A DNA stretch of 64,000 nt from Rhodococcoides trifolii (lineage in GTDB: Bacteria > Actinomycetota > Actinomycetes > Mycobacteriales > Mycobacteriaceae): the NCBI RefSeq assembly GCF_014635345.1, contig NZ_BMCU01000001.1, positions 992,001 to 1,056,000 on the forward strand, written 5' to 3'. The notes under the pieces are model-generated. The model did not search any database. It was not told where the DNA came from and worked only from the letters and a program-made list of their open reading frames with translations. Each line of letters starts with the position of its first letter. The first letter of the stretch is position 1. Below, piece by piece: positions 27,369 through 64,000 of the stretch. The position numbers were made by a program, and so were the translations under genes.

Positions 27369-44875
<17,507 letters not shown>

Positions 44876-44992
44876 GAATGTCGAGCCGATATTTCTGCCG
44901 GGGTCACAGACTCACGGTACAAAGAACGGCGTTCGAACGGACGATTTACCCGTTACTTTGGGAGGTCTACACGGTTGCGCCGGGATCGATTG

Positions 44993-59030: not shown

Positions 59031-60800
59031 CTACTGGCGATAGCGCAGCGCCACCTCGACACGCGAGGTGCAGTCCCACTTGCGCATGATGTTGCGCAGA
59101 TGGCTCACCACCGTCCACCGGGAGATGCCCAGCCGATGTCCGATGTCGACGTTGCTCAGACCGCCGGCCACGAGCTCTGCGACCTGGGACTCCCGCGCCG
59201 TGAGCGCCTCGGTGGTCGGGTCCGGTACGACGTGCAACGTCTCGGTGCCCGACGCGATCGCCGGATACATCGTGTGGACGGCGGCGAGCGCGGGCCGTGG
59301 GGGTGACCGGTGCGACCCCGAGCGCCACCCTGGCCCGTGATCGGCGACGTAGGTGGCGAGCAGCCGGTCGCGATCGAGCTCGAATGCCCCGGTGCCGACG
59401 AGGGCGTCGACGGCGTCCACGAGGTGGGCCGCACCGTCTGAGACGGTGTCGTGGCGGGCGGCTCCCGTCGACCCGGCGACGAACTGGACGAACACGTGCT
59501 GACCGTGCGCGGCCGCGACCGGGTACGCCGCCCGGAGCCGTTGCCTCCCGGTGGCGCTGTCCCCGATCTGCGCCTCGATCATCGCCGCGGTCACGTTGAA
59601 CCGGGCGAGGAGAAGGTCGTGGCCGGCAACGGCGGCGTGAGCTCCGGCAGCGGTCAGAACGGCGTGGGCGTCGGACGGTCGCCCGTCGTGCACGAGTCGG
59701 GACGCCAGATCGAGCGTCACCTCGGCGGCGATCGTGTGGGAACCGCCCGCTGCGATCTCTCGCTCGACCGAGCGTAGGACGGCCGTGGGGTCCACCCGCG
59801 GAGCCCAGACCGCTGCGAGAAGTTCTGTGCGCCAACGGATGTCCCTGTTGTCGGGCCCGGGTGACGTCGCCGCGTTCAGAAGGTGGCGACTGATGTCCAC
59901 GTCCCCGCTGGCGAGGTGAAGTTCGGCCGAGATCGATCGAAGGCGACATCGAATGTCGTTCGATGCGGACGTCGACGTGTTCAACAGTGCGGTCACCTGC
60001 CGATGCAGCGCGCGGTAGATCCCGGCTGCGACGAGCGCCGGAGCGAGTGTCTCGGCGATCTCGACGGCGTCGTCCCACCGTCCCGATGCAGCGAAGCGGT
60101 CGATGGCGACAAGTCCGTGCCGACGCATCGCCGACGCGTGCCCGACGAACCGGTACGGGTCCATGCGTGCCGTGCGCAGATCGTCGCGCACCCAGACGTC
60201 GACGGCGGTGGCCATGGCGGGCACCAGTTCGGCTCCGCCCGCCATGGCCCAGTGGCGCACTGCGTCGGCGGCGTGACCGAGGTGGCTCATCGTCACCGCG
60301 ACACGGGTGCCGGCTGTTTCGGACGCGGGTCCGCGTACCGGGTAGGACACGCGCACGACCCCGGCCGCGGCGAGTTCGTCGATGCCCGTGTCGACGTCTG
60401 TACCCGCGTCCGTGACGCAGCGCAGCATGTCGACGAATGCCGTCCCCGTGGCAATGTGCAACCACCGCAACACGTCCGCGGCGTCCGGCGACCGCGGCTC
60501 CGGCACCGACTCGACGATCGCGTGCGAGCCGGACCGCGCGAGCCGTTCGACGAACCCGGCCCACCGGGACCCGTTCTCCAGCGCGTCGACGACAGTCATC
60601 GGTCCGAGATCGAGCAGCGCCGTGGCGCAGAGTTCCGGGTCGTCGACGGCGATCGCACACCCCGACACGGCCGAGAGCACGGTGTCGTCGATGTCGGCTG
60701 CCACCCCGCGCCGGGCGAGTGCCGCCCGAAGCATCGCGGTGGTCACCTCGCTCGCATCGTCGTTCGGTACCGATTCGAGCCCGACCACAATTTCCGCCAC
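59031..60800 (-). CDS. LuxR-type transcriptional regulator of the lanthipeptide locus
   Basis: The protein is about 589 residues from the GTG at 60800, which has GGGGTGA upstream; an in-frame GTG at 60950 would add 50 Arg-rich residues. The C-terminus is a LuxR/GerE helix-turn-helix: LTARESQVAELVAGGLSNVD then IGHRLGISRWTVVSHLRNIM. The long N-terminal part is Ala-rich and helical, like the tetratricopeptide-style arm of LAL regulators, but no Walker A was found. It is divergent from the lanthipeptide precursor gene and is the obvious candidate to control it. Confidence 0.85.
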   Translation of the reverse strand: MAEIVVGLESVPNDDASEVTTAMLRAALARRGVAADIDDTVLSAVSGCAIAVDDPELCATALLDLGPMTVVDALENGSRWAGFVERLARSGSHAIVESVPEPRSPDAADVLRWLHIATGTAFVDMLRCVTDAGTDVDTGIDELAAAGVVRVSYPVRGPASETAGTRVAVTMSHLGHAADAVRHWAMAGGAELVPAMATAVDVWVRDDLRTARMDPYRFVGHASAMRRHGLVAIDRFAASGRWDDAVEIAETLAPALVAAGIYRALHRQVTALLNTSTSASNDIRCRLRSISAELHLASGDVDISRHLLNAATSPGPDNRDIRWRTELLAAVWAPRVDPTAVLRSVEREIAAGGSHTIAAEVTLDLASRLVHDGRPSDAHAVLTAAGAHAAVAGHDLLLARFNVTAAMIEAQIGDSATGRQRLRAAYPVAAAHGQHVFVQFVAGSTGAARHDTVSDGAAHLVDAVDALVGTGAFELDRDRLLATYVADHGPGWRSGSHRSPPRPALAAVHTMYPAIASGTETLHVVPDPTTEALTARESQVAELVAGGLSNVDIGHRLGISRWTVVSHLRNIMRKWDCTSRVEVALRYRQ

Positions 60801-60979
60801 GTCACCCCGCCGATCGCGATATTTCCGATGTTCGTTTCGAGCGAATCCACGATCTTTGCGCCTGTGTCCGGCCACGATAACCCGAGCGACCTCCCACAGG
60901 TCTGCTAACCACACCACCCGGTTCGCACCGCCGCGGTCGATGCCCGCCACCCGGCATCACACAGATGTGCGGTGTCGAC

Positions 60980-60997
60980 ATCGCACTCCCGTGCGAT
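60980..60997. promoter_or_regulatory. Inverted repeat in the luxR-lanA divergent region
   Basis: ATCGCAC-TCCC-GTGCGAT is a perfect inverted repeat with 7-bp arms. It lies 117 bp upstream of the precursor start. LuxR-type regulators bind such dyads, so it is a candidate operator. The gene-free stretch 60801-61113 otherwise holds CATAACT near 61049, a possible -10 box for the precursor; no matching -35 is clear. Confidence 0.5.
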
Positions 60998-61113
60998 CGA
61001 TGACAAAACGCACTCGCACGAACATGCGTTTCGCGGTGTCCGAATTGCGCATAACTTCGTCCTCACACCCCAGAGCAGTCATCAATTCGCAGCACTCACG
61101 AACGGAGACCGTC

Positions 61114-61278
61114 ATGAACACCACCACCTTTGCAAGCGCGATCACCGCAGTGTCCGCACCCGACGAGAGCGCCCTGGCCGCACTGGCAACGGTGGCGACG
61201 CCGCACCAGAGTGTCCCGCGCGGCTCGGGCCCCATGGGCGTGCCGACGTTCTCGTGTGCCACCTTCTCCTGCCTCTGA
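61114..61278 (+). CDS. Class II lanthipeptide precursor (LanA)
   Basis: The 54-residue peptide starts MNTTTFASAITAVSAPDESA and ends GPMGVPTFSCATFSCL. The leader part is Ala/Thr-rich with an acidic PDES and a helical ALAALATV segment, as class II leaders often have. The core repeats Thr-Phe-Ser-Cys twice, separated by Ala. Each repeat can give one (methyl)lanthionine ring by Thr-to-Cys (i,i+3) closure, with the Ser available for dehydration. A CGGAG site lies six bases before the ATG. The LanM gene starts 11 bp after the stop. The leader cleavage point is unclear: no GG or GA pair, only SG and MG near the core. Confidence 0.85.
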   Translation: MNTTTFASAITAVSAPDESALAALATVATPHQSVPRGSGPMGVPTFSCATFSCL

Positions 61279-61288
61279 TCACCGCCGG

Positions 61289-63883
61289 ATGACGCTGACC
61301 CGGGTCGACCCGATCGCCGCGTCGACCGCACCCCAGCGTCGGGGTGCGGAGCGGCGACTTCGGGCGGTGCTGGATCGGCACCGAGACCTCCTGGCGACGG
61401 AGGACGTCGTGGCCGGTCTCACCGCCCGCCTGGACCGGGAGATCGCGGGCCTCGTCACCTGGGCCGTGATCACCGAGTTCGAGCGCTTTCGCACTCTCCA
61501 CGGGCATCGCGCCGACCCCACCACCGATCGAGCGTTGCGCGAGTTCGACGCAGTCGCGGCGCACGTGCTGGCGGACCGCTGTCCGGAACTGGTCCGGCGA
61601 GTCGACGCGGTGGTGGCCGGGCGGGTCGAGCAACTTGCCGATGTTCTGCGCGCCCTCGGCGCCGACCGCGAGACCATCGGAATCGCGGAGCCCGTCGATT
61701 CGATCGACTTCGGGCACGGCGACCCGCACGAGGGCGGTCGCCGGGTCGTCATGGTCGGTGCGGGCGATCGTCGAGTGGTCTACAAACCGCGCAGCGGTGA
61801 CCCGGATCTGCTGCTGCACGCACTCGTCGGTGTCGTCGACCGCGGCGCGGCTGCGTCCGACGCCCTGTCCGTTCCGCGCGTCCTGACGCGCGACGGGTAT
61901 TCCTGGCACGACTTCCGTGCGCCGCACGGCATCGTCGATCCGGGAGGCGGAACTCGGTTCCATCGCCGGCTCGGTCGGCTTCTCGCGCTGTTCTCCGCGG
62001 TCGGCGCAACCGACATGCATCTCGAAAACATCGTTGCGGCAGGCGAATTCCCGGTTCCGATCGACCTCGAAACGCTGCTGCACCCGGCGACGGACCACTC
62101 GGTGCTGGCCGACGGTCCCCTCGGCACCGGTATGTTGCCGTCCGCGAGCGACGCCGTATCCGGAACGTGTATCGCTGCAGTCTCTCCGGCGGGTCGCCGA
62201 ACCGTCGACGGGTCCACCACGCGCGTCCTGGTACACGCCGGCACCGACGCGATGACCTTGGTGTCGCAGCCGACGACGGTCGACGTGTCGTCGCATCGTC
62301 CACACGTCGCCGGGGTCGCCGTGCCGATCGAGGAGCACATCGACGACATCGTCGACGGATACCGAGCCGGAGTATCGGTGATCCGCAGTCGCGAGAACGA
62401 GATTCGCAAGCTTCTGGACACCGCCGCAGCAACCGAGTTCCGGCGGGTGGTCCGACCCACCGCGGTGTACGGGGCGTTCCTCGATGCCTCGACCCACCCG
62501 CGGTACCTCACCGGACCGGCCGAGCGACGCCGGCTGTTCGAGATGCTGCCGCCCACCTTTACGGGCGGAGACGCTGCGCGGAGCCTGGAGTTGCAGGCGT
62601 TGTGCGACGGCGACGTCCCGCGGTTCGTCGGCCCGGCCGCAGACACGACGCTGCGCGCGGGCGGTCAGGTGGTCAGGGCAGCGTCCACCGACACGGCTCT
62701 CGCCCGCGCCCAACGCTGTCTCGACCGGACGATCCGTACGAATCCCGTTGCCGCAGAGCATGTCATCCGGTCCGCGATCGCCGGTGTGGTCGAGTCCGTC
62801 CAACCGAGGTCCGTCCGCATTCGCGGTGACGATCTGCACCGCGCCCTCGTCGAGCGCGATGCCCGGCGCAGCGCCGCACGAGTGTCGCGTCGTGTCGCCG
62901 CACGAGCTACGCGGGACGCGACGTCCGCCGTGCACGCCCTGCCTACAGGGTCGGGATCGACACTGGCAGCCTCGGACCCCACCCTCTATCACGGTGGGGG
63001 AGGGACGCTCTTCTCGAAGGCCAGGAGCGATCTGCACTCCGTGATCGAGGACGCCGAGCACCGGCTCGCACAATCGTCGCACGATCTGTGCCCCTACACC
63101 GGCGCTCTCGGAACGGTCTGGATGCTCCGTGAATCCGCGTGCGCCACACCGTCGGACCGGGTGCTCGCAACTCGGTTGCTGACCGCGATGGTCGAGTGCG
63201 CGGACATCGAGAACTACGACCGTCTCGACGTGGTCGGTGGCCTTGCCGGTGCCACCGCGTTGTTGGCCACCACCGACTGGGTTGCGCCGGATTTCCTCGC
63301 CCGGTGTTGCGAGCGCCTGGGGCGCCACCTGAACGAACAGGGTTCCGTTGCACGAGGTCTCGCACACGGAATCGACGGCGCCGCGTGGGCGCTGGCGCGA
63401 GGCAGCCGTGTCCTCGGCACGGACCGATACGACGGCGTCATCCACCGAGTGCTCGACAACGCGCCGACACCGATCGAGGACGGGTGGTGTTGGGGAACCG
63501 CAGGTCTCGCGATGGCGCACACCGAGATCGCACATGTGCTCGGCGAATCCGCTTCGTCCGCCAGGGCGCTCGTCGACAGTACGACGCTCCCGGTCGACGA
63601 CGACACCCTGTGTCACGGCGGCGCGGGGACCGTCCTGGCGCTGCGGCACATCGCCGCCCTGACCGGTGACGAGGATCGTCATCGCGTACGCGCCGCCGAG
63701 CTACATGACCGGATCGTTCGTCGCGGCTACGCCACGGGCCACAGCCACCACGTCGGCGCGCTCGGATTCATGACCGGTGTTCCCGGAATTGCCCACGCAC
63801 GGCTACTGATTCAGACCGACGACGAACCGGACCCCATCGCTCTCACGGCGTCGACACGCGCTGCACGCTGCCGGGAGAACTGA
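61289..63883 (+). CDS. Class II lanthipeptide synthetase LanM
   Basis: The 864-residue enzyme dehydrates Ser/Thr and closes thioether rings. The N-terminal DUF4135 dehydratase has HGDPHEGGRRVVMVG near 144, VVYKPRSGDPD near 165, TDMHLENIVAAG near 240 and PIDLETLLHP near 257, which together form the kinase-like phosphorylation/elimination site. The C-terminal LanC-like cyclase has His693 in GLAHGIDGAAWAL, and zinc ligands Cys734 (CWGTAG), Cys775 and His776 (CHGGAG), then GFMTGVPGIAH near the end. It is somewhat shorter than the usual 900-1100. ATG 61289 follows the precursor by 11 bp. Its last 73 bases overlap the convergent kinase gene. Confidence 0.95.
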   Translation: MTLTRVDPIAASTAPQRRGAERRLRAVLDRHRDLLATEDVVAGLTARLDREIAGLVTWAVITEFERFRTLHGHRADPTTDRALREFDAVAAHVLADRCPELVRRVDAVVAGRVEQLADVLRALGADRETIGIAEPVDSIDFGHGDPHEGGRRVVMVGAGDRRVVYKPRSGDPDLLLHALVGVVDRGAAASDALSVPRVLTRDGYSWHDFRAPHGIVDPGGGTRFHRRLGRLLALFSAVGATDMHLENIVAAGEFPVPIDLETLLHPATDHSVLADGPLGTGMLPSASDAVSGTCIAAVSPAGRRTVDGSTTRVLVHAGTDAMTLVSQPTTVDVSSHRPHVAGVAVPIEEHIDDIVDGYRAGVSVIRSRENEIRKLLDTAAATEFRRVVRPTAVYGAFLDASTHPRYLTGPAERRRLFEMLPPTFTGGDAARSLELQALCDGDVPRFVGPAADTTLRAGGQVVRAASTDTALARAQRCLDRTIRTNPVAAEHVIRSAIAGVVESVQPRSVRIRGDDLHRALVERDARRSAARVSRRVAARATRDATSAVHALPTGSGSTLAASDPTLYHGGGGTLFSKARSDLHSVIEDAEHRLAQSSHDLCPYTGALGTVWMLRESACATPSDRVLATRLLTAMVECADIENYDRLDVVGGLAGATALLATTDWVAPDFLARCCERLGRHLNEQGSVARGLAHGIDGAAWALARGSRVLGTDRYDGVIHRVLDNAPTPIEDGWCWGTAGLAMAHTEIAHVLGESASSARALVDSTTLPVDDDTLCHGGAGTVLALRHIAALTGDEDRHRVRAAELHDRIVRRGYATGHSHHVGALGFMTGVPGIAHARLLIQTDDEPDPIALTASTRAARCREN

Positions 63884-64000
63884 CACCGAACCCGGAAGAG
63901 GTCCCCCTCTGCTCCCGCGACGAAGGTCCCGCCGGCGGCCTCGACACGCTCACGCATGTTGATCAGACCGCTACCGGGACGAGTGGTGTCCACCCCGGAA
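63811..64000 (-). CDS. Sensor histidine kinase, C-terminal end (partial)
   Basis: The frame enters from the right edge. It has the late ATPase motif of NarL/DesK-type kinases: TRPGSGLINMRERVEAAGGT, then the last strand DLFRVRCQF. Asn stands where the family usually has Gly in GLxGMRERV. A 20-residue tail follows. The rest of the kinase and probably a response regulator lie outside the window. It may be a two-component input to the lanthipeptide locus; position is the only evidence. Confidence 0.82.
   Translation of the reverse strand, partial: SGVDTTRPGSGLINMRERVEAAGGTFVAGAEGDLFRVRCQFSRQRAARVDAVRAMGSGSSSV

Follow-up and report, generated by a model that had tools for sequence, protein, structure and literature searches.

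What does a very small class II lanthipeptide locus of Rhodococcoides trifolii make, and does it act alone or as half of a larger island? The question is raised by the lanA-lanM unit at 61114-63883 of the window, that is, the whole stretch of 64,000 nucleotides that was analysed (positions 992001-1056000 of contig C1 in a genome of 5.29 Mb). Lanthipeptides are assigned to classes according to their enzymes, and most descriptions treat one cluster at a time; here a class II unit and a class V cluster, the latter located just beyond the window end, lie side by side. It is considered probable that the LanM enzyme modifies the lanA peptide, that a LuxR-type regulator switches the unit on, and that the unit forms the class II half of a two-class island.

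The LanM synthetase, its precursor and the predicted rings

The lanM gene (61289-63883, plus strand, ATG at 61289) encodes a class II lanthipeptide synthetase of 864 amino acid residues, identified by domain and family models and by alignment with LicM2. The protein exceeds the cut-off of the NCBIfam model TIGR03897 (328.4 bits versus 304, residues 14-839), and DUF4135 (dehydratase) and LANC_like (cyclase) are both above their own cut-offs. Among proteins of solved structure, LicM2 is related to it by sequence, followed by CylM. An earlier note on this DNA had listed dehydratase motifs and a Cys734/Cys775/His776 zinc site. The motifs VYKPRS, TDMHLEN (opposite VDFHNEN), IDLETL and RVVRPTAVY were indeed found to align with LicM2, as do the WC and CHG stretches, and the three zinc site residues are present and invariant in the LanM of R. 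corynebacterioides, which is 47% identical. The kinase-like motifs presumably have catalytic roles.

Directly upstream lies lanA (61114-61278, plus strand), recognized by reading of the open reading frame (ORF), by its counterpart in the relative and by BLASTP. It encodes a precursor of 54 residues, MNTTTFASAITAVSAPDESALAALATVATPHQSVPRGSGPMGVPTFSCATFSCL, with the C-terminus TFSCATFSCL, and is preceded by a ribosome-binding-like GGAG at 61104-61107. Such a precursor ahead of a full LanM had been described before and was recovered as described, except that the gap between the two genes counts 10 bases (61279-61288) and not 11 bp. In R. corynebacterioides a 60-residue ORF ending in TTTCPTWSCV is found directly ahead of lanM. 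There is no ATG near the stop of this ORF (L004:1480-1531); LanM may begin at a CTG that overlaps this stop or at a GTG approximately 50 bases further on, a junction that suggests coupled translation. The two precursors share 45% identity over 44 residues (BLASTP E 1e-8 in a single comparison), and the 22 aligned residues common to both are mainly located in a leader APDE and in the terminal RGSxPxGxPTxxCxTxSC. The APDE motif is too short to weigh. A LanM with a cognate class II precursor is well supported, and there is a strong case for lanA as the substrate of the adjoining enzyme.

LanMs of this type are rare, and two species are known here to have one. With a threshold of E 1e-20, LanM was matched in two of the 37 genus genomes, the window genome and R. 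corynebacterioides (thus in one of 36 others), and a pattern scan of named genomes confirmed a single relative, R. corynebacterioides NBRC 14404, among 159 candidate stretches. Wider scans, in which only the two best candidates per genome were scored, gave matches in 4/401 family genomes at E 1e-30 (the two outside the genus being ~30% identical), in 2/397 order genomes and 2/394 class genomes at E 1e-50 (the same two species), and in 27/384 class genomes at E 1e-15. The best other matches by E-value are ~30-33% identical. A plasmid home was rejected, none of 137 matching plasmid records covering 80% of LanM in one place.

Both cores have kept T-x-x-C-x-T-x-S-C, with RGSxPxGxP upstream of it. 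The units of the R. corynebacterioides core are TTTC and TWSC, which rules out the identity of the two TFSC units in lanA as a meaningful feature. To the earlier note these identical units had suggested two identical small rings in series; the exact repeat is thus not kept, but both T-x-x-C units are, and because of this conservation two small rings in series are plausible. In the proposed mechanism the kinase-like domain of LanM would phosphorylate and eliminate Ser/Thr residues of the C-terminal block of lanA, dehydrating Thr45 and Thr50 and perhaps more residues, and the zinc LanC domain would then join each of the two cysteines to the dehydrated threonine at position -3 from it. The predicted product carries two four-residue methyllanthionine rings in series, T45-C48 and T50-C53, a pattern that is proposed with moderate confidence. 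For the lanA piece after Arg36, GSGPMGVPTFSCATFSCL, the calculated [M+H]+ is 1725.74 after loss of two H2O, 1707.73 after three and 1689.72 after four; for TFSCATFSCL it is 1043.43 after loss of two.

Overlapping rings, or rings that also use Ser38, Ser47 or Ser52, are an unlikely alternative that nevertheless has some basis in the alignment: Ser38 and Ser52 are identical in R. corynebacterioides and Ser47 is aligned with Thr. Moreover, the Ser/Thr immediately before each Cys is conserved as well, so that other dehydration sites are possible, a point that weighs against the proposed pattern. On the other side, both species have Thr at position -3 from each Cys, and a residue directly beside a Cys is an unusual ring partner. 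The NG86 ratio of nonsynonymous to synonymous change (dN/dS) of the precursor pair is 0.54/0.98 overall and 0.30/0.40 over the last 19 codons. These values are compatible with constraint but fall short of proof; the latter, based on few sites, does not show strong purifying selection and also counts against the preferred reading.

A pattern for pairs of T/S-x-x-C units, run on 36 loci, matched both lanA genes (loci L002 and L003; L004, L006 and L009), ORFs of another type in L011, L019 and L020, and four further stretches on the minus strand (L002, L006, L009 and L018). The strings TFSCATFSC, TTTCPTWSC, ATFSCL and CPTWSC do not occur in the open-licence full texts of PubMed Central (PMC), a scope outside which MIBiG, antiSMASH-DB, BAGEL and most subscription literature fall. 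By family only, the class II product may be expected to be antibacterial. With its two predicted four-residue rings the peptide would be a very small scaffold, easy to make and test.

The divergent regulator and its putative operators

A LuxR-type regulator of up to 639 residues (59031-60950, minus strand; GerE domain, E 9.3e-15) is encoded divergently from lanA. Its true start is probably near 60806, since the R. corynebacterioides protein aligns from residue 49. At E 1e-20 the regulator was found in the same two of 37 genus genomes as LanM, with 51% identity between them. Upstream of it the two species carry different genes, helicase-like in R. trifolii and coding for an aldehyde dehydrogenase in R. 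corynebacterioides.

Three repeats of a 7-4-7 layout are located in the intergenic region, to which the regulator would bind and thereby switch on the lanA-lanM unit. Putative operator 1 (ATCACACAGATGTGCGGT, 60956-60973) agrees with the consensus at 12 of 14 positions and its R. corynebacterioides counterpart (L006:7776-7793) at all 14. Putative operator 2 (60980-60997) is a perfect palindrome, ATCGCAC-N4-GTGCGAT (14/14), with a counterpart at L006:7801 that reaches only 9/14, and putative operator 3 (61013-61030) has 11/14 versus 10/14 at L006:7834. The start-to-start spacing is 24 + 33 bp in the window and 25 + 33 bp in R. corynebacterioides. A block of 12 bases, TGCGTTTCGCGG (61025-61036, plus strand), identical in R. 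corynebacterioides and ~90 bp before the lanA start, is possibly part of a promoter. In base shuffles a 12-mer shared by both upstream regions arose in 16 of 2000 cases, and perfect 7-4-7 palindromes in both regions in none of 2000. The exact palindrome is present in three of the 37 genus genomes, at one site each (the window genome, R. corynebacterioides and G019). The G019 copy is found at C46:4920-4937, in a genome with neither a LanM nor a LuxR match.

Several observations speak against three conserved operators. In R. corynebacterioides only one of the three sites lies within three mismatches, and its 9/14 site ties with two other places within the same 240 bases. Nor are degenerate sites significantly more numerous than in shuffled sequence: L002 has 5 (shuffle mean 2.27; 16/200 shuffles reach 5) and L006 has 3 (shuffle mean 1.86; 53/200 reach 3). 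The argument from the conserved register of the three repeats is therefore rated as moderate, and the perfect palindrome is likewise predicted with moderate confidence to be a LuxR operator. No palindrome with three or fewer mismatches was found before the neighbouring class V operon of either species (L002 and L006), a result that weighs against the two-class reading and leaves LuxR as a joint regulator of both modules unsupported.

The neighbouring class V cluster and the history of the island

Beyond the window end the genes were followed in locus L002, in which position p corresponds to window position p + 57999. Convergent with lanM lies a sensor histidine kinase gene (L002:5812-7011, minus strand, equivalent to 63811-65010, its C-terminal part being inside the window at 63811-64000; HisKA_3, E 2.9e-13), coding for six hydrophobic windows of 19 residues in a crude scan. 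The two genes overlap by 73 bases (63811-63883), much the same as in R. corynebacterioides. A gene for a LuxR-type response regulator follows (L002:7345-7950, minus strand; domain scan). The remaining genes are all on the plus strand. They encode a methyltransferase (L002:8043-9272; domain scan), an LxmK kinase (L002:9269-10330; NF038156, 327.3 versus 315 bits), a HopA1 protein of lyase type (L002:10330-11298; PF17914 over cut-off), four tandem class V precursors (L002:11308-12069, equivalent to 69307-70068), an LLM oxidoreductase (L002:12188-13183; domain scan), a flavoprotein of the Cys-decarboxylase kind (L002:13180-13707; PF02441 over cut-off, with only 90.1 versus 215 bits for the CypD model of decarboxylases of ribosomally synthesized and post-translationally modified peptides (RiPPs)), a LanX-like protein (L002:13704-14615; APH at only E 0.0087, 16.3 versus 23.2 bits), an M16 peptidase (L002:14612-16555; M16 domain) and an ATP-binding cassette (ABC) ATPase with permease (L002:16552-18368; domain scan).

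The four precursor genes, assigned by the LxmA leader model and by reading, are of two alternating types, ending in TTVPCSALASITTAELGC and TTIPCSALASYASAKLTC. One copy of each type, thus two of the four genes, was scanned with the leader model NF038146 and scored 38.6 and 32.4 versus 25 bits. Conserved residues of type-A class V leaders are, according to a passage in PMC9486802, Tyr-17 (fully conserved), Ala-3 and Pro-2; by reading, Tyr-17 and Pro-2 are present in both types and Ala-3 in type 1 only, type 2 having Thr. The tandem copies of 178 nucleotides are 100, 76, 91 and 70% identical to the first, and R. corynebacterioides has two genes, one per type; the four genes apparently represent a duplicated A1-A2 pair. 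Judged by LxmK, HopA1 and the leader, the cluster is a complete class V cluster of the lexapeptide/pristinin type, with weaker assignments for the decarboxylase and LanX.

Gene order across the island is the same in R. trifolii and R. corynebacterioides, and the compared proteins are ~35-83% identical. An ortholog of the kinase (54%) is present in three other genomes of the genus (36 compared), and LanM is missing from two of these three. These two, G002 and G005, are close relatives of R. corynebacterioides in which kinase, regulator and ABC genes are kept and both modules are absent: no LanM or LuxR was found in them at E 1e-20 and no HopA1 at E 1e-8. DNA alignment of G002 with R. corynebacterioides runs to L006 base 5927 and again from 10883, 4955 bases with LuxR, lanA and lanM standing against 54 bases. 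It stops a second time at L006:12974 and resumes at L071:1323, where ~8.3 kb of class V genes stand against 183 bases. In G005 the first gap is seen in the same way in DNA, the second from protein order alone. The kinase-regulator stretch between the gaps (L006:10883-12974 versus L069:7097-9188) is 93% identical between R. corynebacterioides and G002, with flanks of 96-97%, a difference that hints that this segment was exchanged as a whole. What G002 and G005 keep at this locus (kinase, regulator and ABC genes) may be left over from immunity or may reflect a pre-insertion state; either would fit.

The strongest rival explanation for this arrangement holds that the two modules have no relation beyond their position, each functioning by itself next to a kinase-regulator-ABC locus at which genes are readily gained and lost. 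This is a serious possibility, judged to have somewhat over one chance in three. It accounts well for the two separate gaps, one on either side of kinase and regulator, and for the fact that a separate regulator and palindrome belong to the class II unit. It is also in line with the wider distribution of class V genes. LxmK exceeds its cut-off in 7 of 197 class genomes, including R. trifolii and R. corynebacterioides (151 of the 197 match at E 1e-3, mostly weakly). DUF4135 was sought in 12 genomes, namely the two bearing the pair, the five others over the LxmK cut-off and the five strongest below it, and none of the ten other genomes matched. With 2 of 12 such genomes positive, class V clusters do not generally come with a LanM, nor do they need one; within the tested set, only this island has the pairing. 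Independent neighbours explain less readily why the modules are jointly present in two genomes and jointly absent in two sharing the kinase ortholog, why the order has been kept despite the protein divergence given above, and why neither a LanT nor a dedicated protease is seen for the class II unit. The small number of genomes behind this joint presence, two having the modules and two lacking them, is itself a point against a two-class island. HopA1 at 58% is found only in R. corynebacterioides besides the window genome (29-34% matches in 5 others of 37), and on eight plasmid records at 29-33% identity.

A two-class island raises the question of how the class II leader is removed. As the earlier note had it, the leader lacks a clear double-glycine (GG) site: R. 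trifolii has LATVAT where the R. corynebacterioides leader has LAGAGA, and a glycine-alanine (GA)-type leader end may have been lost in the former. This lack of a GG or GA site is a point against the preferred reading; a GG-type leader end with a C39 peptidase LanT, a usual though not universal class II trait, was not found in R. trifolii. A scan with a single pattern, assumed to be C39-like, gave nothing in the window, L072, L002, L080 or L006; two matches in L071, one of which runs into a stop, are taken for chance. This one-pattern scan is a weak sign that LanT is absent. The same note had proposed to look for LanT or a protease past 64 kb, where L002, without a C39-like motif, holds the M16 peptidase and ABC genes of the class V cluster. 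Leader removal and export would thus be carried out by other proteins, with these genes as the nearest candidates, or by host proteases. M16 proteins have been proposed as leader peptidases in passages on the cacaoidin, lexapeptide and pristinin clusters (PMC8068269, PMC7794033, PMC9486802). Use of the class V protease and transporter by the class II unit is a weak proposal. Tentative too, with perhaps one chance in four, is a single system in which a short class II bis-methyllanthionine peptide with a LuxR switch of its own and two class V peptides (encoded by four genes after duplication) share the class V M16 peptidase and ABC transporter for maturation and export, and in which the peptides are synergistic or the class II peptide signals to the kinase-regulator pair.

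Far less probable are cross-class products, in which LanM would also act on the precursors of the class V cluster, or the kinase and lyase of that cluster on lanA. The loci do adjoin, a short AAPDE stretch is common to one class II and one class V leader of R. corynebacterioides, and a passage in PMC12291118 states that no LanC-like cyclase had been identified in class Va clusters, which makes an adjoining LanM unusual. However, LanM has its own precursor, and in the same source the Lan ring of the class Va rosins is described as forming under substrate control, aided by RosK-RosY. Furthermore, lanA has no Tyr, in contrast to the fully conserved Tyr-17 of type-A class V leaders (PMC9486802).

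The reading of LanM-modified lanA within a two-class island is thus preferred. Side by side classes, together with relatives without the modules, form a system for asking about joint action, shared protease, export and immunity. Elsewhere in the window a minus-strand ORF of 2292 residues (L072:1-6876, window ~38000-44876) has a start that by eye resembles a non-ribosomal peptide synthetase (NRPS).

Comparison with known systems

Regions of mixed class are in themselves known already: a table in PMC11705897 includes one from a Streptomyces, predicted to be lanthipeptide class I + II + NRPS. No report of class II and class V lanthipeptide genes in one cluster was found in the titles, abstract starts and some passages of the open-licence PMC literature. 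For Rhodococcus, a passage of a survey of 616 genomes names class III lanthipeptides among the RiPP types and in that passage no class II or V (PMC11433410), and a passage in PMC10456417 gives a class III prediction for one strain.

The class II locus alone adds a further member to a known kind of system. Like the LanM-type class II systems of LicM2 and CylM, it combines dehydratase and zinc cyclase in one protein, with the precursor gene directly upstream; it differs in the leader end without GG or GA (in R. trifolii), in that no LanT is seen and in the very short T-x-x-C-x-T-x-S-C core. The neighbouring cluster resembles the class V clusters of pristinin A3 (spr), lexapeptide (lxm) and cacaoidin (cao) in its LxmK, HopA1, LLM reductase, flavoprotein, LanX-like, M16 and ABC proteins and its LxmA leaders. 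Its cores begin with TTVPC or TTIPC, close to residues 1-5 of pristinin A3, which a passage in PMC7794033 derives from Thr, Thr, Pro, Val and Cys. Its LanX-like gene lies between the putative decarboxylase gene and the M16 peptidase gene, as does cao14 in a table of the cacaoidin cluster; cao14 corresponds to CaoX in PMC9486802. The spr cluster is described in a passage of PMC7794033 as encoding no LanBC, LanM, LanKC or LanL, whereas the class V cluster here adjoins a LanM unit.

It is the two-class island, kept in two species, that sets this locus apart from a class II locus alone. Roseocin-type two-peptide class II systems, as outlined in a passage of PMC10027976, are similar in that actinobacterial LanM products are involved and more than one precursor is encoded per locus; in the present island the two types of precursor differ both in leader and in class.

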